From positions 9,255,122-9,319,121 of the forward strand of contig NC_087377.1 in NCBI RefSeq assembly GCF_963675165.1: a stretch of 64,000 nt of DNA. The letters are read 5' to 3'. The notes beneath the pieces were generated by a model. That model was not told where the DNA came from. It did no database searches and saw nothing but the letters and a program-made list of their open reading frames with translations. Both the position numbers and the translations under genes were made by a program. Below, piece after piece: positions 4,848 through 49,160 of this stretch. The DNA is from Halichondria panicea. Lineage: Eukaryota > Porifera > Demospongiae > Suberitida > Halichondriidae. Each line of letters starts with the position of its first letter. The first letter of the stretch is position 1.

Positions 4848-4890
4848 TAGCCTCGAATCCATGCCGTTAATCGGCGTGGATTCGAGGCTA
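4848..4890. mobile_element. 43-bp minimal TAG...CTA transposon with 9-bp TSD
   Basis: The element reads TAGCCTCGAATCCATGCC at its left end and the near-perfect inverse at its right end, so it is almost all terminal repeat with one mismatch pair and a tiny loop. It is flanked by the exact 9-bp direct repeat gttcttttc (4839-4847 and 4891-4899). Its terminal TAGCCTCGA is identical to that of the 8.55-kb helicase/transposase element at 8424-16973. It is therefore the smallest member of that family visible here, presumably moved in trans. Confidence 0.85.
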
Positions 4891-5241: not shown

Positions 5242-5455
5242 GGATCGACCTAGTTGGGCGGAGCCCGACCGTCCCTGACGGGAGGTCGAGGGACACGCTT
5301 ATATAGGATTTGTACTTGTGTGTTATGTAATACTGCTTGGAGCATCATGAATATAATCATTTTAAGTGGGTGTTAAACGCAATATGCACCGCACTGCACC
5401 ACACTGGCTGGCACTGAACAACATGACTGTGCTACTAAATTAGTATTGAGCAAGA

Positions 5456-5701
5456 ATGGCCCAAGTGCTACAATGTTTTGGATGTGGGGATGAGCTATCA
5501 AGGCCTGGTGATAGGAGAGCTCTTGATGTTCCAGCTGGAAAGGAAGTGTTGGACCTGTGGACAATGCTACTGGAGAATGAGGAAGAACAGATGTGTGCTG
5601 ATGTCGACATTAACAGTATTGTAAATGGCAGTGATAAAAACAGATTGCCCAAAATGTGCAGGAAATGTTTCGGTAGATATAGCAGCTTTCTTGAAGCACA
5701 G
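5456..5701 (+). pseudogene. zinc-finger first exon of a deleted transposase gene
   Basis: ATG at 5456 opens an 82-codon exon ending at a good donor (CACAG|GTAATA at 5701/5702). It has a Cys-x2-Cys pair near residues 7-10 ('CFGCG') and a second near residues 68-71 ('CRKCF'). This is the layout of a ZAD-like or similar Cys4 zinc finger, and it matches in position the first exon of the DUF6589 transposase at 14217-14752. No transposase core follows: the helicase 3' end begins about 60 bases after the donor. It is the stump of a transposase gene left by an internal deletion shared with the copy at 16405-16640. Confidence 0.7.
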
Positions 5702-5769
5702 GTAATAATGAAAATAAAAATTGTAATTAGCTGAAAGAAGTAACAAATAACCTAAGTCTTAGGTCCACT

Positions 5770-7054
5770 GTCCACATAAACATGACTTAGAACAAATATC
5801 ACAGCACAAGCAATTGAAACCGAGATCAAAATGTTTGTAATTGTCAATATTTCGGAAAAGACTATCCCTTCTACAATCTGTAGTGTTTGAAGCATATTCA
5901 TTATCAACTTGATGGTAAATTATTGCCTTCAAAAGGGTTACATGCACGTGATGGTTTACCATCTCGACCTGCTCTACCAGTCTCTTGTACATAGCTACTG
6001 ATATCGTCTGGCAGGCCAACATGAATGATTTGCCGAATGTTGGGACAATCAACACCCATGCCAAATGCCATAGTAGCTACAACAATGCGAAGATTGCCAT
6101 CACCCTTAAATAAACGAATGATTTAAGATTTATGGGCTGGATCAGTGACACTTGTAAACATGTCCACGAGGTGAAATTCAGGAAGATCAGGAAACTTGTT
6201 TCTCTCGATTACCAATTTCTGGGCCAAGTTTTGGAATGTCTCTGGTATACTTTTGAACAATCCAACAGCATACATCAAATTTGGGATTACTGGGACTCTC
6301 GTAATGACAAATGGGTTTCTTAGGCCAACAATACGAGAAATGAATGAAATGTCACTTCGGGTAGCTGTTGCTGTTAGCGGCATCACATGAGCTGATGTTG
6401 GAATGAGGCTGCGCACTTCTCCAATTCTCAACAGCATTTGCCTGAAAGTCTCACCCCTGCAATAATATTATTGGTATAAAAAACGATGAGTCAAATACAT
6501 AGTGATACCATTTCTTCACACAATGAGCTTCATCGATTATCAAAGCCTTGAGTCTATTAGCATACACATCTCCCCCCAGAAGTCTTCTCCAATGCTTCTT
6601 GCTGATGATCATTTCAGGTGTAAAGAATACTAGCTGGTACTTTCCGTGGAAGATCGCATCCATTGTAGCTGCATCAGACATCTCGCCCGAGACATAATTA
6701 TGTGCTAGAGATGCCTTTAGAACAATAGATGGCTACCTATATATAGAATAAAAGCATCCAGTTTAGTTACGTGTAAACAGCTCATATGCACATGTACGTA
6801 TAATTATATGTATGTTCTATCTAGCCTTACATACCTGATCATGAATGATGGCCAGCAGAGGAGTGACTACTACTACAATAGAATGACCTTTCTCCTTCTC
6901 CAATATTTTGTCAAATGCTGCAGGCAAACAAGAGCAAAGGCTCTTTCCAAATCCAGTAGGCAATACAGCAAAGACATCTCTGCCTCTCAGAAAAGAAGTG
7001 ACTACTTCCAAGCTCCTTAGCAGCTTCTGTGACAGCTTGTGTAACTTTCTCCAT
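5770..7054 (-). pseudogene. RecQ-like superfamily II helicase, transposon-borne, broken
   Basis: Three exons on the minus strand: about 7054-6835 (donor CAG|GTATGT), 6714-6509 and 6456 onward to about 5770. Exon 1 carries the Walker A motif 'VLPTGFGKS'; exon 2 carries the DEAH box 'DEAHCVKKW'; exon 3 carries motif III-like 'LTATATRSD', motif V around '[10 protein letters not shown]' and motif VI '[10 protein letters not shown]', then a Cys-rich RecQ zinc-binding tail. Damage: the start ATG neighbourhood and Q-motif stretch are out of frame with Walker A, the 108 bases encoding motif IV (present in the copy at 14937-16360) are deleted in frame, and a TAA replaces a Glu codon near 6126. A helicase of this kind would unwind DNA in the nucleus, perhaps during transposition. 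This copy cannot encode an active enzyme. Confidence 0.85.
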
Positions 7055-7252
7055 TTTGCTCAAGGCAGCTCTGCCCAGCTAACGTTGCATGGCTGCACAC
7101 CCACCTAGCTAAGTGGGTGTTAACCAACCACTTGCAATACTGCAATCTGATTGGGCTGCACTCCTCAGTGCAGCAGTACAAATCCTATATAAACGTGTCA
7201 CCTGGCCACCCGTTGGGAACGGGTGCCGGGCTCCGCCCAGCTAGGATCGACC

Positions 7253-8414: not shown

Positions 8415-8603
8415 CCTCTGTGGTAGCCTCGATTTAAGGCCGCTTTAGAAGCGGCCTGGTATACCTTGTATGCGCATGCGCTTACATTACCCCAAAAAGG
8501 GGGTAATCCGTGTATTTGTGGATACTGTCAGTAAAATAAACACGTATACTATTTTGTATTCTAATTTTAGTGGTCCGTGTTACACACTTTACATATAGCA
8601 AAG

Positions 8604-9983
8604 ATGACTAGCTCGACTGACACTGAGTTCTCTTCCGCTTTGGCTTATGCCCTTTCTTGTGTGAAGAGAAGTCATTTAGTTCTGAGGGATAAACAGCTTG
8701 ACACTCTACGGATGCTGTTGGATATGGAAAGTCTATCTGCTACCAAACTTTGCCTTTTTTATTCGACAAGAAGCTGGATAGAATTAGTTCTCCTCCTAGT
8801 GAGCGTAGTATTGTGTTAGTTGTGTCTCCCCTAGTGTCTCTAATGGTAGATCAAGTGACTAGTCTACATGATCGTGGTGTTCCTGCTGGTATACTCAGTG
8901 GAAACAAAGGGGTCGATAAGAAGTTCCTTGCTAACGAGAAAGATGTGCTTGAAGGAAAATGTTGCCTCTTGTATAGTGCTCCTGAAGCAATTGTTGGTAG
9001 CCATCGTTGGAAACAACTTTTACTGGTCCCTCCGTTGTGTACATCGATGGTGGCTGTGGCAGTGGATGAGGCCCATTGTGTGCATAAGTGGTAGGTATTA
9101 ATTGTGACTGTTTGATATATATGATTGCATTAACACTGAGTATTTGTTGTAGGAGTGCAGACTTTCGACCATGTTATGGTCGTATCAACGAATTACGTGC
9201 CTTCCTTCCTGCTGGACTGCCGATGTTATAGCATCAACTGCCACCGTTACTGACGTTATGCGACAAGAAGTGATTGAGAAGCTTGAGATGGAAGGCTGTA
9301 AGATTGTAACTGTATCTCCAAACAAGCCGAATATTTTTTATTCCGTTCAAAAACGTTCCGGTGATATAGAACACGATCTTTCTTTCATAGTTGATGATAT
9401 AGCGACTCATTCCATCAAGGCCAGGCGTGTGATTGTTTACTGCCGTTCCCTAGATATGTGTGCAGATTTATACGCTCATTTTTTGTTCACCCTTGGAGAT
9501 ATGGCGTATTACCCCACTGGTGCTAAGGAAGTAAGTGACAATAGAACATTTGGTATGTATCATTCGAAAACAGACGATCACAATAAGCATGTTATTATGC
9601 AAGGTATGGCAAAGACTGATGGAACGATCCAAGTTGTGTTTGCAACTATGGCCCTTGGAATGGGAGTGAACTTTATAGGCCTTACCAGTACGATACACTA
9701 CGGTGCTCCTAGATGTATTGATGACTACTTCCAGGAAAGCGGCCGAGCTGGAAGAGGAGGTGAATTGTGTACTTCGACTATCTTCTGGCGTCCATCTGAT
9801 GCCCCTGTGCGGAAAGACCTGAATAACCCTCGTAATGCTGAAATAGTTGCAGTTAGAAGGTATATTGAGAACTGTTCAGACTGTCGCCGCTATCTTTTGC
9901 TGAAATATTTTGATTTGACTATAGCTGCTAATCTAAAAAGGTGTGACCCTTTGTTGTGTTGTGACAATTGCGTAAGTGCATAA
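8604..9983 (+). pseudogene. RecQ-like superfamily II helicase of the 8.55-kb element, broken
   Basis: Exon 1 runs from ATG 8604 to 9090 (donor AAGTG|GTAGGT). Exon 2 runs from 9153 (acceptor TTGTAG|GAG) to the stop at 9983. Visible motifs: a damaged P-loop 'VGYGKS' near 8733, 'VVSPLVSLMVDQV' (motif Ia) and 'DEAHCVHKW' at the exon 1 end; then 'VIVYCRS' (motif IV), 'VVFATMALGMGVNF' (V), 'QESGRAGRGG' (VI) and a Cys-rich RecQ zinc-binding tail with 'CSDCRRYL' and 'CCDNC'. Breaks: the segment between the N-terminus and the P-loop is shortened and out of frame, losing the Pro-Thr normally before Gly-x-Gly-Lys-Ser, and about 2 extra bases near 9225 shift frame just before 'ASTATVTD'. The C-terminal 250 residues remain open. 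It converges on the transposase gene. Confidence 0.88.
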
Positions 9984-10238
9984 GGCTGCTGAGTAAGGCA
10001 AAGTGGAAAAGTTAGTCAGAAGGTAAGTATTTTTTTATACTAAATAGCGGGTAATTTTCGTGTTGTAAAAATTATTATTATTCGTGGGCAAGCTGACCTA
10101 TAGGAAAACTTTCTCCGCGCGTGGTTTACAGGAACGCTAGCAGTACTTGCAGCGCACGTAAATAAATCAAGGAAAATAATCACTCTATGTAATACATGAA
10201 AATTAGCTATTGTCATAATCTGCTTTAGAGATTCAATT

Positions 10239-10459
10239 ACCATACGGGTAGAAAATTTCGAGGTGTTTTTAATTTCGCGTCTTTCGTGGGTGGCTGCAGA
10301 ACACGAAAATTAAAACCCGCGAAAGGCTTTGTTTATGCCATGCGAGATAGTGACACACCCTAACTCCACGAAATTTACTACCCGCGAAATTTTCCAAATA
10401 AGACAGAATATTGAATTGCACGAAAATTTACACCCTCGAAATTTTCTACCCGTACGGTA
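10239..10459. mobile_element. TA-flanked MITE of the 'CCGTA...TACGG' family
   Basis: The ends read ACCATACGGGTAGAAAATTTC and the inverse, with CGAAATTTTC-rich arms typical of the family (22237-22424, 31787-31992, 35069-35279, 46665-46889 and others). It sits between the two converging genes of the transposon. Confidence 0.75.
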
Positions 10460-10474
10460 TTTACATCAATCTCT

Positions 10475-13400
10475 TCAGTTTTCATCATCAGAAGCTTCTT
10501 GATCAGATGTGTTTCCTTCTGTTAACTGTCTATGCTTTTCATGTTGTTTAATTTTCTCCTTTATCCACAGATGAAGTTTCTCTCTATCCAAAGCCTTAAG
10601 AGGATTGCCTGACATTTCTGGGAACTTTCTGTAACATCGTCCTTCTTGAATCGTGTGTGGTTTAACTTGTTGCAGCACTTCCATAACACGGTTAACGTCA
10701 TTTTCGTCGGACTTTGCGAGTGTGCTGATAGCTCAGGATGTATACCAGTTTCATGATCAAACTTCTTCGACATTTTCTCGAGAGTGGTCACAGATCGTGC
10801 AGCTCGTGTACTTGATTCAGGTGTAAAGTTTGCTCCCATGTTACCAACCATCTCTTTGAACAGCCGATTGATGTGTTCATTGTGCAGATCGCATGGGATG
10901 TTACGGCCAGGTCCTCCATGTGTATTGACGAACCTACCCCAAGTCAGCTGATGAACTAGATCCGGTGGGAGTGATGCAAGCTGGAACTGCAACACTAATG
11001 CCTCGAGTGAGTACTTTGTTCGTCTTTCAGCGTGGAAATGAAGCATGAAAATCTTCCAACATCTCAGTATCCGTGGCCCGTCTCCCTCATATATATAATA
11101 GTTATAGACTGAGTCCAAGGTCTCTATGGGGTTTTGAGACCTGAAGGCCCGAGGCTGTAGCATCTCGAGCGTAGCGAGGGTGCTACTAAGGGCCTGAGGG
11201 TCTCAAAACTCCATAGTGACCGTTGACGAGGCCTATAACTGGTTTAGAATAGTGCTAAGCAAGCTAGGCTATATTAACACAAAGAAGACTCTGAAACCAA
11301 GAGTTTTCTACAAGCCTCAAGCAACGTTAAAGCTTTGCTCTGGCTAGTCTACATAAAAAAACTCACATTGATGAAGGCAGTTTCTGTTTCTTGAGAATCA
11401 CGCATTGCAAATAAAAAGTTGCTATTGTCATAGTAGTTAGCTCTGCACTAGAGCACTAGCTATTGTAGCTGCAAGAGAGAGATAAAAGCTGCAAAGCGGC
11501 ACTGCAGAACGCAAAACTTTAAAAAAAATTAATTTTTAATGATGCACTGTATCATCGTTACTATGACTTCAACATAAACTGTGTGATGTTGCCATGTTCC
11601 ATACAAGTTAATCTTGACATCATCTTGCCTGTAGGCATAATCAGTATAATAGACCTACTTAGAAGACCTCAGGTCCATAAGTGAAATAATGGACCTCTCA
11701 GTGACCTATCAGATTGCAGTATTACTACAAGTATTTTCTAAACCAAGCATCTGTGAACTCTGTTACCAGTGCGGCATAGTGACACAGAACTCTAGTGTAG
11801 TTGTACACACCATCCTTGCTATCCTCAAGTGGCTCTCCAAGAATTGCTTCTGACACTATAGTGTGCTGTTTCACTATCTTCCTTGCTAATTCCGACACAT
11901 CTATACTCTTGCGTTGGCCATCTTCTTGTGTTGGCATATCTACATCCAATCCAAGTTCCTTGCGTGCTATCGTGATGACATGAGCCTTAAACACCACGCG
12001 AAGAGCATCGAGACAAGCATGAAGGTCTTTCTTCGGGATTCTGGCTTGAGATAGTCTGCCAATCTGTGTGAAGAGATGTGCCAGTGAGCCAGGGTCCTTC
12101 GAGTATGGGGTGTAGAGTCGCTTCCATATGATCTGCAAAAGAATAAAAGGTTAGTTAGTACTTAACGTTTTAATGGGCTTTTCACAGAATATTGTACATA
12201 ATTATATCACATGCATGTTTGTTTAGATTTTTAGCCAAACATGTACATAAAATATTATGTCCAAGTGAGTGCTTCACCTACCCCCAGAATACTCATAAGG
12301 CAGTGCCAGTCCTCTATACAAGGCTCTAACTGCTCCAATCGTCCACTGCGAGTGTCCGCATCTCGCATATGTTTTTTGCTACATCGCTGTCTTTCACATG
12401 TCATCTGATCGCCACCTGACATAACAGTAAGTTCAATAGAATCTTTCAAGTATGAATGTTTCTCGATCATTATGTCTATCATGTCTGCGGCCTTTGCCTC
12501 ATTCTTGTGTAGAACATCAAGGACTACAACCTCAGATTTTTTGGCCATCTCTGTGCTGTGGGGGTGCTTAATGTGACTGACAACACACCGTTTGTACCGT
12601 TGGAGGGGCTTGATGTACTCGCACAGTATTCGACCGACTAGAACGACCAAATTTTCTTGGATGCCCTCAATGTCGGTCTTTGTAGGAAGGAAGTGAGTTA
12701 TTTTTAGGGAACCCAGGTTAGGGGGGGAAAAGGTTGAGACTGGAGATGGTCCTTTCACACGACCCTTCACTGCCAACAAACTGTACATTTGCACTAGCTC
12801 ACCATGATGGTCACTACGTATGTCTCTAACGCCCTTTGTTTTAGCAACGTTGTCCCCCACGAACTTGAAACATGCACCCTCATCAATCCAGGCATCGATA
12901 GGACGTTGGTGCAGCTTGCTGATTTTCGTGACCAACTTCAACACGGCACAGTAACTGATAGTGACACTAAGATGATTCAGCCTGGAGTATACCTGTGAGT
13001 AATTCAATGTAATCATAATTATATAAGAGGAGATGGATTGAAAACGGAGGTAGCATCGCGTTACATTAATTTTTAAATCTGTGTACGGTTGTGCAGCACT
13101 TGGGGAAACGATGTTTCTGGAATTAAGACCACTGCAATTAATGCATTCAAAGCCCCCCTAAAACAACATGCATTCTCATGCCCTCTATAATGGTGAGCAT
13201 CCTTTGGAAAAAATACGTTTTTCAAAATAGCTACAAAGAGTGTCATGCTCTGAGATCTTTATGAGTATGCTTCTAGCTAATGGTAATACTTAATTATCAG
13301 TGTACTGCACGTGTCAATCCATACGTTCCTCAGGTGACAGTTGGGAGTATACTGCAGGCACTATCTAGTCTAGATTTTACTAACGTTACAATCATACATA

Positions 13401-14752
13401 CATTTTGTAGCCTCGATTAAACCCTGGCCTAACGCGGCAAGGTAACTTCCGTTTCCAATCCCTCTCTGTGATATAATAATTATACCTGTATCTGAAAATA
13501 CGTAGTGGACACACATCATACATGTACATGTACATGTACAAACCTTTTTATTTACTCTACAGTTGAAGAGTACGAGAGACAGAAACGACTGAATACCACA
13601 CATTCTTGTGTTATGCTCTTTCAAGAGAATTGCTGTGGCCATACACATCCCAGGGTAGTGACTCTCTCCGCGTTTATGCAAGTTCCTATCATCTGAACGT
13701 CCTACGATCGTCTGGATAAGCCTAAATAGAATCGGAGACTTTCGCTGTAGTTCAGACACAGCCTGTTTCCACGATAACGCTTCCACATTGTCAATTGGAA
13801 CCCGGTGAAATAGAGAGACAAACTCCCCAGAGTTACGACATAGAGTGGAACATTCGTCGTCAAGAATTTTCATCACACCCTCTACCAATTGGTCCTTCAG
13901 TGAAGGGCAAGAAAATGCTGCCTTGGCAATAGACTGAATGTTGCCACTATTCAGTGCCTGGCGTAATTTCTGGAGACTTTCATCTACTTCCGCAGTCACT
14001 GTACTGGGTGAGCTCACTGTGATCTGTATATTGTTTAATTAATTAGTGTGATTTTGGTGTGTTTACAGTATCAGATCTGTTATCCTCACCATAACTGTTT
14101 CAGTCGAACCAGGCTTGGAAATATCTCTTGCAACACCTTCTGAACCTTTAAGTTAATGGCTATATATTAATTTACGTTCATTTCGTTTGTAGGTGGTTTA
14201 ACATACCGTCAACAGGAAGAAAACTGCTCGAGATTGGTCAATTCTAACAGCGGTGGCTGACGAGGACAGTCTGTGTGCGCTATGAAAAAGAGATGATTCC
14301 TGTATTCTACATATATGATTTGTTGCAATCAACCTACGTTCCTCCCTGGTTGAGAAAGCAAGCCTTCTTCCAGGTGCTCCTACTGTTAGACGTTTTGCTA
14401 GAGGTCTAGCATGGACAGTGTGAGGTGATGCTTCAAGCCCACTGGTGTCTTTAGTTCTCTTCCTACCTGATACCATAGGACTACAGATGGAAGCCTTATT
14501 TCGACCCTGCTCAAAACCACACTTAGCCATACTTCTAAAGGCTTTAAGTTTAGACTCCAGAGACTGGAATTTGTTTGTGCAAGCTCTACAAATGTATGAA
14601 GATAGCCCATCACACTCACTAATTGGCAGCTCTAGCAGTTTGCCAAGTCTGTCTGGAAGGCATCTTTGAACAGACTCTTTGCTGAACAGAGCTGAGCAGC
14701 GAGTAGAAGTAACAATGTTGCAGCACAATCTGCATATTCTGGTGGCTGCCAT
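10475..14752 (-). pseudogene. ZAD-like zinc finger + DUF6589 transposase, interrupted
   Basis: A multi-exon minus-strand gene. Exon 1, 14752-14217 (donor ACG|GTATGT), starts at an ATG and has Cys pairs 'CRLCC' and 'CRACT' about 60 residues apart. Then come about 14147-14090; 14023-13544 (donor AAG|GTTTGT); 12992-12282 (acceptor CTCACAG, donor GGG|GTAGGT); 12132 downward (acceptor TTTTGCAG); and 11088-10475. Exon junctions 3/4 and 4/5 join in phase. DUF6589-type landmarks include 'FVGDNVAKTKGVRD', 'GGDQMTCER' followed by 'EDWHCLM', 'EGDGPRILRCWK' and 'NIPCDLHNEH', which hold likely acidic catalytic residues. Breaks: repeat C (11093-11747) cuts the frame between 'TDAW' and 'EGDG', and a single-base shift near 10720 splits the C-terminus, which continues as 'VNRVMEVLQQVKPH' to the stop at 10475. 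A 2-kb relative is inserted just upstream of the start codon. Confidence 0.85.
11093..11747. mobile_element. repeat C, copy 1, inserted in the transposase gene
   Basis: About 655 bp, nearly identical to 27129-27772. It begins near TAGTTATAGACTGAGTCC, has an inner palindrome around 11100-11242 ('gttatag...ctataac', 'atggggttttgagacc...ggtctcaaaactccat') and ends near 'agtattttcta'. It interrupts the DUF6589 reading frame, which shows that it inserted later. The exact ends and TSD are not clear. It carries no ORF of its own. Confidence 0.8.
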
Positions 14753-14936
14753 TGCATTGTGGGCTTGAACTAGCTGGGCGGAGCCCGGCACCCGTTCCCA
14801 ACGGGTGGCCGGGTGACACGCTTATATAGGATTTGTACTGCTGCACTGAGGAGTGCAGCCCAATCAGATTGCAGTATTGCAAGTGGTTGGTTAACACCCA
14901 CTTAGCTAGGTGGGTGTGCAGCTGGGCGGAGCTGCC

Positions 14937-16360
14937 ATGAGCAAAATGGAGAAAGTTACACAAGCTGTCACAGAAGCTGCTAAGGAGCTTGGAAGTAGTC
15001 ACTTCTTTTCTGAGAGGCAGAGATGTCTTGCTGTATTGCCTACTGGATTTGGAAAGAGCCTTTGCTATGCTTGTTTGCCTGCAGCATTTGACAAAATATT
15101 AGAGAAGGATCTATTGTAGTAAGTAGTCACTCCTCTGCTGGCCATCATTCATGATCAGGTATGTAAGGCTAGATAGAACATACATATAATTATACGTACA
15201 TGTGAATATGAGCTGTTTACACGTAACTAGATCATTCTAAGCTGGATGCTTTATTCTATATATAGGTAGCCATCTATTGTTCTAAAGGCATCTAGCACAT
15301 ATGTCTCGGGCGAGATGTCTGATGCAGCTACAATGGATGCGATCTTCCATGGAAAGTATCAGCTAGTATTCTTTACACCTGAAATGATCATCAGCAAGAA
15401 GCATTGGAGAAGACTTCTGGGGGGAGATGTGTATGCTAATAGACTCAAGGCTTTGATAATCGATGAAGTTCATTGTGTGAAGAAATGGTATGTATTTGAC
15501 TCATTGTTTTTTATTAACATGTGTACCAATAATATTATTGCAGGGGTGAGACTTTCAGGCAAATGCTGTTGAGAATTAGAGAAGTGCGCAGCCTCATTCC
15601 AACATCAGTTCATGTGATGGCGCTAACAGCAACAGCTACCCGAAGTGACATTTCATTCATTTCTCGTATTGTTGGCCTAAGAAACCCATTTGTCATTACG
15701 AGAGTCCCAGTAATCCCAAATTTGATTTATGCTGTTGGATTGTTCAAAAGTATACCAGAGACATTCCAAAACTTGGCCCAGAAATTGGTAATCGAGAGAA
15801 ACAAGTTTCCCAAAACAATCATATATGGACGTTCTTTTGGAGTGTGTGGTGACATGTACCTCTTCTTTAAGGATTACCTTGGAGCTGCATTCACAAATCC
15901 TGATGATGCACCTGATCTTCCTGAATTTCACCTCGTGGACATGTTTACAAGTGTCACTGATCCAGCCCATAAATCTGAAATCATTCGTTTATTTAAGGGT
16001 GATGGCAATCTTCGCATTGTTGTAGCTACTATGGCATTTGGTATGGGTGTTGATTGTCCCAACATTCGGTAAATCATTCATGTTGGCCTGTCAGACGATA
16101 TCAGTAGCTATGTGCAAGAGACTGGTAGAGCAGGTCGAGATGGTAAACCATCACGTGTAACCCTTTTAAAGGCAAGAATTTACCATCAAGTTAATAATGA
16201 GATTAAAGAATATGCTTCAAACTTCAACACTACAGATTGTAGAAGGGATAGTCTTTTCCGAAATATTGACAATTACAAACATGTTGATCTCGGTTTCAAT
16301 TGCTTGTGCTGTGATATTTGTTCTAAGTCATGTTTATGTGGACAGTGTGACCTAAGACTT
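14937..16360 (+). pseudogene. RecQ-like superfamily II helicase, copy in nested element, broken
   Basis: Exons are about 14937-15158, 15288-15487 and 15544-16360, with the same splice sites as its sister at 5770-7054. It keeps motif I 'VLPTGFGKSLCY', 'FFTPEMIISKKHW', 'DEVHCVKKW' (Ala to Val within DEAH), 'LTATATRSD', motif IV 'KTIIYGRSFGVC', motif V '[12 protein letters not shown]', motif VI '[10 protein letters not shown]' and the Cys-rich tail. Defects: a frame break before Walker A as in the sister, a short deletion near 15110 removing part of motif Ia and bringing a stop, and a TAA at about 16070 where the sister has CAA. The breaks differ from those of the sister copy, so each decayed on its own after insertion. 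Confidence 0.87.
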
Positions 16361-16404
16361 AGTTACTTCTTTCAGCTAATTACAAATTTTATTTTCATTA
16401 TTAC

Positions 16405-16640
16405 CTGTGCTTCAAGAAAGCTGCTATATCTACCGAAACATTTCCTGCACATTTTGGGCAATCTGTTTTTATCACTGCCATTTACAATACTGTTAATGTC
16501 GACATCAGTTCTTCCTCATTTTCCAGTAGCATTGTCCACAGGTCCAACACTTCCTTTCCAGCTGGACCATCAAGAGCTCTCCTGTTACCAAGCCTTGATA
16601 GCTCATCCCCACATCCAAAACATTGTAGCACTTGGGCCAT
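16405..16640 (-). pseudogene. zinc-finger exon stump, nested copy
   Basis: Matches the exon at 5456-5701 on the opposite strand: ATG at 16640, 'CFGCGDELS' and donor CACAG|GTAATA at 16405. A small deletion after the 'NEEE' stretch (about 16505) breaks the frame. The same loss of the transposase core is seen as in the sister element. Confidence 0.7.
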
Positions 16641-16977
16641 TCTTGCTCTTTTAATTTAGTAGCAAAGTCATGTTGTTTTCAGTGCCAGCCAGTGTGTTGC
16701 AGTGCGGTGCATATTGCGTTTAACACCCACTTAAAATGATTATATTCATGATGCTCCAAGCAGTATTACATAATACACAAGTACAAATCCCGTCAGGGAC
16801 GGTCGGGCTCCGCCCAACTAGGCTTGAACATTCTACCATCAACCACGCGGTCTTACGTATTTTTCCTTTGTGTACTTTGTCTGATTTTATCACTTGCGTA
16901 ATACTGATAAATATACGAATTATTTCGCGCATGCGCATACAAGGTATACCAGGCCGCTGTAAAGCGGAGGCTACCTC

Positions 16978-17043
16978 TGTGGTAGATTATTGATCAGTTG
17001 CACAGTGCATTGTGGTAGATTATTGATCAGTTGCACAGTGCAT
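16978..17043 (+). repeat. 33-bp tandem duplication next to transposon end
   Basis: Two identical 33-bp units, beginning 'tgtggtagattattgatcag', start at 16978 and 17011. The first overlaps the last bases of the 9-bp TSD, so the duplication arose beside the insertion. Confidence 0.85.
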
Positions 17044-26201: not shown

Positions 26202-27934
26202 TAGCCTCGATCCCAGGCCGAGTTTTCGCTTTTATAACGGTTAGGCGAACAACTGGGCCTGGTACTAGTTGTCTGCGCATGTGTCAAATTTTCATTGTAT
26301 ATTTGTGGTCGGCAAAAATATTTAATAAATCAATAATCGAAATTTGTACACAGAAAATGCACAGAGTGAGTACACAAAAGATGCACATAGGGAGCTGCTT
26401 CACAAAGGCCTGGGGAGTTGCCAGTTGTGCTGCAGCACAATTACAGTGACCCAGGGCAACTTCAGGATGATTGAATGCCTTCAAATTACGTTTCAAAAAG
26501 ATTTAGCAGGCTGCTGGACTTCTCTGATTCTAGGCCCCAACTCGTAACTCATTGCTTGAGAAAACGTAGATTCTCTTGATGTCTCTGAGCTACCCAGCAA
26601 CGCTCGAATGAGCAGGTCATACTCCAGTCCTGTGTCTGTGAGTATAGGACAATATTAAAAGAAACCAAAGACGGTTAAACCCTTACCTCAAACTGTCCAG
26701 TCTCGTCCGTTAGTATAGCCAAGAGGAGCACTGTTGGGATAGCTGGATATTAGCCATTGCTCCTGTACAGAGAAGTAGACATTTTAAATACGTGTAGATC
26801 TATACATATTAAATTTCTCGGTTATAGTGTCATTGTCGACGAGCTGATGATGGCAGCACCAAGTTCTCTAGCTCACACTCTTCACTTGATCCACCATATT
26901 AATAATGAAACTATAGTCTACCTACATTCTTGCCAAACATGAACAAGACTTGATAGCATAGCCGGCCATAGGGCCCACACAAAAATATCTGACCTTAACA
27001 AGCTTGACAAAGCTTTATACCTCTTCCCTTGTTGTTCAGTCTTCAGAATAAGCTTCAGAGAAGAGAGAAGCTTCAGCTAAGAGCCATTCCAATCGATTCC
27101 AATAATGATAAAACGGGAACTGACTTCTAGATAATAGTTATAGACTGAGTCCAAGGTCTCTATGGGGTTTTGAGACCTGAAGGCCCGAGGCTGTAGCATC
27201 TCGAGCGTAGCGAGGGTGCTACTAAGGGCCTGAGGGTCTCAAAACCCCATAGTGACCGTTGACGAGGCCTATAACTGGTTTAGAATAGTGCTAAGCAAGC
27301 TAGGCTATATTAACACAAAGAAGACTCTGAAACCAAGAGTTTCTACAAGCCTCAAGCAACGTTAAAGCTTTGCTCTGGCTAGTCTACATAAAAAAACTCA
27401 CATTGATGAAGGCAGTTTCTGTTTCTTGAGAATCACGCATTGCAAATAAAAAGTTGCTATTGTCATAGTAGTTAGCTCTGCACTAGAGCACTAGCTATTG
27501 TAGCTGCAAGAGAGAGATAAAAGCTGCAAAGCGGCACTGCAGAACGCAAAACTTTAAAAAAATTAATTTTTAATGATGCACTGTATCATCGTTACTATGA
27601 CTTCAACATAAACTGTGTGATGTTGCCATGTTCCATACAAGTTAATCTTGACATCATCTTGCCTGTAGGCATAATCAGTATAATAGACCTACTTAGAAGA
27701 CCTCAGGTCCATAAGTGAAATAATGGACCTCTCGGTGACCTATCAGATTGCAGTATTACTACAAGCATTTTCTAATACACGATAGTACACGAATATAAAT
27801 GTCACGAAAGTGAACGAGAATATCCATTCGTCAGAATCTGACGAACGATTGACGCATGCGCAGACAACTAGTACCAGGCCCAGTTGTTCGCCTAACCGTT
27901 ATAAAAGCGAAAACTCGGCCTGGGATCGAGGCTA
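26202..27934. mobile_element. 1.7-kb TAG...CTA transposon with 80-bp terminal repeats
   Basis: Perfect or near-perfect inverted ends of about 80 bp begin TAGCCTCGATCCCAGGCCG and include 'gttttcgcttttataacgg', 'gggcctggtactagttgtc' and 'tgcgcatg'. The exact 9-bp TSD is gcgataaac (26193-26201 and 27935-27943). Each end is itself a hairpin (CCAGGCC...GGCCTGG). The interior holds repeat C (27129-27772) and no helicase or transposase, so it is a non-autonomous member. Confidence 0.93.
27129..27772. mobile_element. repeat C, copy 2
   Basis: Nearly identical to 11093-11747, including the inner palindrome. Here it lies inside the TAG element at 26202-27934. Confidence 0.8.
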
Positions 27935-48139: not shown

Positions 48140-49160
48140 TGAGGGTTAGTGCTTGTGTTTTTTGTTTCTTACTCTGTTGCAGTTCCTGTGCCCACAAAAC
48201 TGTCTCAATCGCTTCTGAGGTCTAGACACAAACCGAGATGTACCGGGGTGTTGGTATTCTTTTTTGCCTTTGTTTCCTTAGTTGATCCCAGTGTCCGCAT
48301 CGGGTTTAAATTTCACCAACTTTCAGTATTTCAACATAGATATTTGCTTGGTTAGGATGGTGGTTTGATATTGACCAAAATTGTCCTTCACTCCAGCAGA
48401 CAAAAGGATTTTGCTTAATGTCGACTTCTTGTAGATTATCTTTGCGCCATATTTAGCCAACAGTTTGCCAGTTCTTTCTATCATTCCTCTACGTTTCTTA
48501 TTGGTGCAGTGAGTTAGGTACTGAACATCATTCATTGTTCTGCCTTTCACATGTCTTGACAGTAGAGAATATTGTTTCTTCACCCTTTTGCGTAATTCAA
48601 CAGCTTTCTTCTCTCTTTTAGCTGAGAGGTCCTCATAGGTGTATCTTTGTTTAAAAAACTCGTCTCCTATAGATATTTGTTCTGATGTAACACGGGCCTT
48701 TTTCGCAATTTTTGTGTTGGCTGCTTTACTTTGTTGCTTACATCATCCTAGTCTCATGAATCAGCCGCACCTTTGGTGTCCGTCTGAGCACTCTTTACGT
48801 GAACTCATGGGCCACAGTGGATTTCCAACGTGACCAATGAGATTGCTCACAAGTATCAGGTGACTTGAATAGGAGGCAGCAAATAGTGAAACTTTACATG
48901 CGGTTGAGCAGCAAGCAGTGATGTGGCTGAGCAGAGATAGCGGATATGGTTGCATTTTTATGATTTTATTAGCTTGTACAGTGACGTAATACATTCCATT
49001 GTGAAATGATTTCAAGTAAAGAGTGCTCAGACGGACACCAAAGGTTCATGAGACTAACATCATCCATAGCTCTGGGTTTGTGCTGCATTGTGTTGTTTTC
49101 TCTGAATTTGACTTCACTTTTGATTTCCTTGAAACACTTTCTTCTTTCCTGGTTAAAAGC
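48140..49160 (-). pseudogene. broken duplicate of the basic coiled-coil gene at 50295-51457
   Basis: The same order of sequence as 50295-51200. An open piece (48583-48450) reads 'QYSLLSRHVKGRTMNDVQYL' and 'KRRGMIERTGKLLAK'. An internal deletion then removes the stretch from after 'LLAK' to the 'KDYLLKVDIEQNPF' equivalent and shifts frame. Part of the 5' half is replaced by a 308-bp TAG element (48749-49056). The duplicate lies in the same orientation 2.1 kb from the better copy. Confidence 0.8.
48749..49056. mobile_element. 308-bp TAG...CTA MITE with 9-bp TSD inside a pseudogene
   Basis: Left end TAGTCTCATGAA, then after a small insert CCTTTGGTGTCCGTCTGAGC; right end the inverse ...TTCATGAGACTA. 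The exact 9-bp TSD is acatcatcc (48740-48748 and 49057-49065). The parental gene (about 51095) has the uninterrupted equivalent. The ends share only TAG/CTA and TSD length with the TAGCCTCGA group, so this is a different subfamily. Confidence 0.9.

Follow-up and report, generated by a model that had tools for sequence, protein, structure and literature searches.

AcademH is reportedly a lineage of the Academ superfamily, defined by Kojima in 2020, and Academ transposases presumably carry the DUF6589 domain. Here we compare with it a transposon in a 64,000-nucleotide stretch of the genome of the sponge Halichondria panicea (NCBI RefSeq GCF_963675165.1, contig NC_087377.1, positions 9,255,122 to 9,319,121 of the forward strand; hereafter the window), together with very short elements built of transposon tips, which we read as probable excision scars and which suggest where such an element may be cut. 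According to an excerpt of PMC10045372, AcademH elements have target site duplications (TSDs) of 9 or 10 bp, and AcademX, of the same superfamily, has TSDs of 3 or 4 bp and a nuclease in place of the helicase. For excision, the closest parallel that we consider is the P element, whose second-strand cut falls 17 bp inside the end (PMC7776569 and PMC10983969, in excerpt); what remains after end joining is the 8-bp TSD and at most 17 nt from either end, along with microhomology or templated inserts (PMC2895639, in excerpt). A homologue of the Bloom helicase takes part in the repair of P breaks in Drosophila (PMC7776569, in excerpt).

The AcademH-type transposon, which holds three later insertions and is called the outer element below, spans 8424-16973 of the window (8550 bp). 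It begins with TAGCCTCGATTTAAGG at 8424, ends with GCGGAGGCTA at 16973 and is flanked by two copies of the 9-bp direct repeat CCTCTGTGG (8415-8423 and 16974-16982), found nowhere else in the whole window, so that repeat searches bear out the exact ends and the 9-bp TSD proposed in an initial annotation made from the letters alone. Its inverted repeat comprises 32 nt at 8450-8481 and 16927-16958, 100% complementary, besides the tips TAGCCTC. The left tip with its subterminal inverted repeat (8424-8459, + strand) has the inner arm GGCCTGG at 8453-8459, starting at position 30 from the tip; in the right tip (16949-16973, - strand) this arm stands at position 19, and in the second copy described below at position 29.

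The outer element encodes two convergent genes. On the + strand, 8604-9983 holds a RecQ-like helicase gene with matches to DEAD (E 6.8e-8), Helicase_C (E 1.1e-11) and RecQ_Zn_bind (E 5.3e-6; 27.5 bits against a cut-off of 25). On the - strand, within the approximate limits 10475-14752, lies a DUF6589 transposase gene of several exons, three pieces of which cover positions 9-152, 156-284 and 285-406 of the 410 in PF20231. These profile matches confirm both gene calls of the initial annotation; the ZAD-like N-terminus that it also proposed does appear as a zf-AD match, and the claim stays weak, as the match (E 3.8e-4, 21.1 bits) falls under the curated cut-off of 28. Nothing but DUF6589 and this weak zf-AD match was found in the window transposase pieces at E 0.01 or better. 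In an alignment, GDQ and DWH are common to the transposases of the outer element and L067 (see below), and an EA pair and a NIP-DLH-EH stretch to all three transposases aligned; the acidic residues within these motifs may form the catalytic triad. Neither gene of the window copy is intact. The helicase frame is broken near its start, where the first exon is split over two frames (8571-8819 and 8702-9094), and the transposase is interrupted at 11092-11741.

A second copy on contig C14, L165, matches the outer element in five pieces at 97.3-99.0% identity, plus two short cross-matches of the ends, and is flanked by a perfect 9-bp TSD, GGTAAACAC. Helicase and transposase stand in the same order as in the window copy, whose protein pieces match those of L165 at 91-100%. 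The L165 counterpart of the first helicase exon is one frame of 185 aa, and the stretch split in the window by 11092-11741 is one open frame of 342 aa. Both genes also lie inside one pair of terminal inverted repeats (TIRs), with perfect 9-bp TSDs, in L066 (5413 bp) and L067 (5417 bp). Pfam, run on L067 of the two, found DEAD, Helicase_C and DUF6589 (E 1.7e-39) there and no match to RecQ_Zn_bind. Because L066 and L067 are near-identical (5 mismatches and 6 gap columns) and have perfect TSDs, this 5.4-kb family must have moved recently; the TSDs of a third 5.4-kb copy, L065, do not match. L165, L066 and L067 thus uphold the reading of two convergent gene types inside a single element, and in none of them do helicase and DUF6589 genes occupy separate elements with TIRs and TSDs of their own, the arrangement that the initial annotation had named as telling against it.

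A helicase in the same element was found in the outer element, L165, L066, L067 and L105 (by Pfam in the outer element, L067 and L105). A TSD of the 9- or 10-bp kind flanks the window element; it is lacking in L065 and imperfect in L021. The suggestion of the initial annotation that AcademH is the closest described group is supported by DUF6589, the element-borne helicase and the 9-bp TSD, and the 9-bp length that it had left in doubt for known members agrees with the 9 or 10 bp given in the excerpt of PMC10045372. By its genes and TSD length, assignment of the outer element to AcademH is therefore supported.

Micro-elements of 36-141 bp, each built of both tips, occupy 225 places across three tip families. 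F1 (tips TAGYTGGGCGG) accounts for 20 places of 40-68 bp, against zero of 71-101 bp in the genome search. F2 (TAGCCTCGAATCC tips) gave 66 scored places of 36-62 bp and none of 63-87 bp, one overlap aside; one of 23 forward places, C1:7096409-7096495, in which a listed element overlaps a neighbouring tip, was dropped. F3, of the type of the window element at 26202-27934, gave 119 places in the size range 81-111 bp and a further 20 in the range 112-142 bp. For F2, 48 of 67 places were fetched, and for the shorter F3 set 50 of the 119 were listed and the first 20 fetched. A perfect 9- or 10-bp TSD flanks 67 of the 108 fetched micro-elements, compared with 18 of 20,000 mismatched flank pairs (F1, 18/20; F2, 23/48; F3 of 81-111 bp, 14/20; F3 of 112-142 bp, 12/20). 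The TSD has one or two mismatches at 11 further fetched F2 loci and is 10 bp long in 6 of the 40 fetched F3 micro-elements. Microhomology of 1-6 nt is common at the junctions, and some long junctions hold inverted tip copies. The window itself contains a 43-bp F2 micro-element at 4848-4890, with the 9-bp TSD GTTCTTTTC, which we read as an excision scar.

The tips follow a rule. All 12 long ends checked combine a TA-starting tip with an arm, GGCCTGG, GGCCGGG or GGTCGGG, at a family-specific distance, and in most cases this arm is the inner one of a subterminal inverted repeat. It starts at position 30 in F2, 34 at the R end of F1, 37 at the L end of F1 and 55 in F3, and in the micro-elements, with few exceptions, the retained tip ends by the first 1-3 bases of the inner arm. 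With mismatches tolerated in the scores, no more than 31 nt of tip is kept in 131 of the 132 F2 ends scored (exactly 30 nt in 34 of them and 31 nt in four); the single remaining end scored 36, and there, by our reading, the other tip resembles the parent. This limit differs from the TIR border, as the two ends of L105, a long F2 copy, are alike to about 47 nt. F1 tips keep at most 35 nt at R (31 ends) and 37 nt at L (9 ends). From F1 and F2 we predicted, before the F3 search and with one example of about 52 nt (in L022) already known, that F3 tips would stop near 55. In the 81-111-bp set this came true: 40 of 40 fetched ends keep at most 55 nt, six of them exactly 55, four of which were scored against the window's own F3 end.

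We suggest that the micro-elements are excision scars of AcademH elements. A staggered cut is proposed because fresh insertions have complete tips while scars also keep tip sequence. Of the two strands, the transposase would cut one at the tip and its partner at the inner arm, 30-55 nt further in, with the result that one tip strand would leave with the element and the other remain on the flank; the two long 3' tails would then be joined by microhomology-mediated (polymerase-theta-like) end joining, yielding TSD, two partial tips and TSD. Between the two cuts, the element's RecQ-like helicase might unwind the 30-55 bp of hairpin-forming duplex. It may be needed because the tips fold into hairpins and such a duplex would hardly separate unaided. 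Folding with DNA parameters, run without a shuffled control, predicts tip hairpins of -17.8 (F1 L), -12.7 (F1 R) and -5.1 (F2) kcal/mol, and of -11.6 and -7.7 kcal/mol for the left and right tips of the outer element. The 2-kb helicase-only elements and short miniature inverted-repeat transposable elements (MITEs) described below would have been moved in trans. All told, we consider it reasonably probable that this is an AcademH element that excises via a 30-55-nt staggered cut, with strand parting by the helicase as the hypothetical part. Its stricter form, in which the stagger is programmed by the inner arm (GGCCTGG type) and not by distance, the helicase exists to part the strands and the scars record the cut family by family, we put forward tentatively, as a possibility.

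Several points weigh against this account. The cut itself is read back from scars, its strand polarity is borrowed from the P element, and the role of the helicase is a hypothesis drawn from physical reasoning. MITEs and 2-kb elements have moved though their own helicase is absent or broken, so that the helicase, if needed, would act in trans. F3 elements of 112-142 bp had been predicted to be absent, and 20 were found. Scored by the F3 references, 18 of these retain no more than 57 contiguous nt of tip, plus filler, and many of the 20 have inverted or repeated tip pieces between both ends. L157 and L163, however, run through the inner arm and keep it beside the tip (the 80 nt scored for L163 are meaningless because its own printed sequence was the reference), and L161, of another tip type, also runs through, since the arm at its position 46 is retained. 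L035 and L079 matched in the arm check as well, which we read as the outer arm of the other tip backwards. No clear TSD was found at 1 of 20 F1, 14 of 48 F2, and 4 of 20 and 7 of 20 F3 loci in the two size sets. Finally, a single 58-bp junction recurs at six F1 loci, and 58 bp is also the length of 20 F2 loci; mobile micro-elements would give this too.

That last point is an argument for taking the micro-elements as micro-MITEs, hairpins of 36-106 bp that transpose as such: the 58-bp copies are identical or nearly so, yet the six F1 loci have different TSDs, and five of eight fetched 58-bp F2 copies have five different perfect ones. Against this, F1 junctions are diverse (the 20 loci show 15 distinct sequences, which we sort into about 13 junction types), and the same F3 junction is found with different arm sequences in L127 and L131, as if formed twice, a pattern that CpG decay in both arms could mimic. 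With few exceptions the micro-elements also lack the inner arm that all 12 long ends checked possess, and 40-60 bp would be very short for two synapsed duplex ends; we regard micro-MITEs as unlikely. Ordinary copies might instead lose their middle, with no special internal cut, when palindromic DNA is replicated or repaired or when gap repair is aborted, in keeping with the predicted hairpins and the microhomology at the junctions. Random deletion predicts broad sizes, however, whereas F1 has none of 71-101 bp, and the cut-off tracks the inner arm, whether this stands at 30, 34, 37 or 55 nt, and for F2 and F1 R/R it departs from the TIR end; we hold this explanation to be rather improbable. 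That the helicase and DUF6589 genes come from two elements nested by chance is scarcely credible: a second helicase in the span does sit in a nested element, but L165, L066 and L067 hold both genes between one TIR pair with perfect TSDs, which refutes the idea for the outer helicase. If the staggered-cut account is true, very short hairpin repeats can be scars rather than mobile MITEs.

Some F2 loci are copies within larger repeats rather than independent events, because there are just 31 distinct left flanks among 40 loci. Four F2 elements of differing lengths at C13:5.57-6.04 Mb (L106, L108, L109 and L110) look like segmental copies of one insertion because they have the TSD GAAAAAATC in common. 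Two F2 micro-elements, L075 (C11:4710788) and L083 (C16:5204973), have the same TSD, GTGTAGCAT, but their junctions differ, which looks like a single insertion that was duplicated and then resolved separately in each copy. A search with TAGCCTCGATTT tips for scars of the outer family gave a weak result: its 25 rows come down to 24 distinct places, most of which belong to other families, and one weak candidate, 46 bp at C5:3304299, fits the outer left tip and the L165 right tip.

The initial annotation treated 8424-16973 as a single element; the element stands, and three later insertions inside it had been overlooked. The stretches of the window copy absent from L165 are 10240-10457, 11092-11741 and 14755-16820. 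The first is a 218-bp insertion with 34-nt inverted arms and an apparent TA duplication, read as a MITE of another kind, and the second is a 650-bp insertion that splits the DUF6589 coding stretch. The third contains a 2.05-kb helicase-only AcademH element (14771-16820, + strand) with TIRs TAGYTGGGCGGAGCCCG and the 9-bp TSD GGCTTGAAC (14762-14770, just upstream of the putative transposase ATG, and 16821-16829); here L165 has a single GGCTTGAAC, the empty site. Inside it lies a decayed second RecQ-like helicase (14940-16360, + strand). The nested TIRs, own TSD and empty site rule out that both helicases are parts of the outer element. With 40 of 256 candidates scored, the nested element has at least 22 near-full places, its own included. 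A perfect 9-bp TSD flanks every one of the 22 helicase-only copies examined (20 fetched and two in the window), and their frames stay at or below 221 aa, which rules out a working helicase in them; L067 and L021 have last-exon helicase frames of 282 and 293 aa.

In the 131-Mb genome there are 92 DUF6589 matches, weak ones included, and the TIR TAGYTGGGCGGAGCCCG occurs at 282 places, against 0 for a backward control. Pairing of the first 100 of these places gave several size classes: a 5.4-kb class that holds both genes, one of 9.2 kb (L021, whose TSD is imperfect), a helicase-only class of 2.1 kb, and two short ones of about 0.2-0.7 kb and of 40-68 bp; a 9-bp TSD flanks all 17 fetched elements of 196-724 bp. 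For the outer family, 40 of 276 candidates were scored, which gave, besides the outer element and L165, at least 13 places with the first 501 bp and two partial ones, and at least 23 places with about the first 146 bp. L105 carries decayed genes related to both of those in the outer element (identity of 46-80% for helicase pieces and 30-74% for transposase pieces); in the three of its frames given to Pfam, DEAD was found and DUF6589 was not.

When the window was scanned for TA-ended pairs that have identical 9-bp flanks, ten were listed, of which four besides the outer element were judged real: 5251-7243, 14771-16820, 26202-27934 and 48749-49056. The first, upstream of the outer element on the - strand, is a further 2-kb helicase-only AcademH copy with the TSD GGATCGACC. 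The F3 element at 26202-27934 (1733 bp, 9-bp TSD GCGATAAAC), with outer and inner arms starting at 12 and 55, has no stop-to-stop frame above 81 aa, and F3 is assigned to this group by its tips, TSD length and arms. The pair at 48749-49056 bounds 308 bp with TAGTCTCATGAA ends and the 9-bp TSD ACATCATCC, and may represent one more family of this type. Two identical 33-bp copies stand in tandem at 16978-17043, where the outer element ends on the right.

How does the window transposon compare with the systems described? With AcademH it shares a transposase and a helicase in one element and TSDs of 9 and sometimes 10 bp, and no tested feature sets it apart. AcademX belongs to the same superfamily and differs by its 3- or 4-bp TSDs and its nuclease (PMC10045372, in excerpt). 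In a comparison that covers papers other than the one defining AcademH, no mention of AcademH excision scars was found in the titles and first lines of abstracts searched or in the excerpts cited here. Like those of the P element, the scars have both TSDs intact and, between them, portions of the two ends that do not exceed a fixed length, with microhomology or templated filler. P elements have 17-nt tails and 8-bp TSDs, whereas here the lengths are 30-55 nt, set by the inner arm, and 9-10 bp. Bloom is a RecQ-type helicase, and at P-element breaks it is the host's Bloom homologue that acts; here the RecQ-like helicase is element-borne. The transposases belong to different Pfam families, that of the window being DUF6589, and neither a P/THAP9-type transposase nor a THAP domain was found in the window transposase pieces. 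The window transposon resembles the P element in scar form only. Scars from several families in a natural genome show where the inner cut may fall, and a long stagger would give a testable reason for a cut-and-paste element to carry its own helicase. If true, this would be a guide to what to seek in other helicase-bearing transposons. The element belongs to a known lineage, AcademH, and the new part is the scar rule; an arm-fixed long stagger, if true, would add a second example to that of the P element, at up to three times the P stagger.

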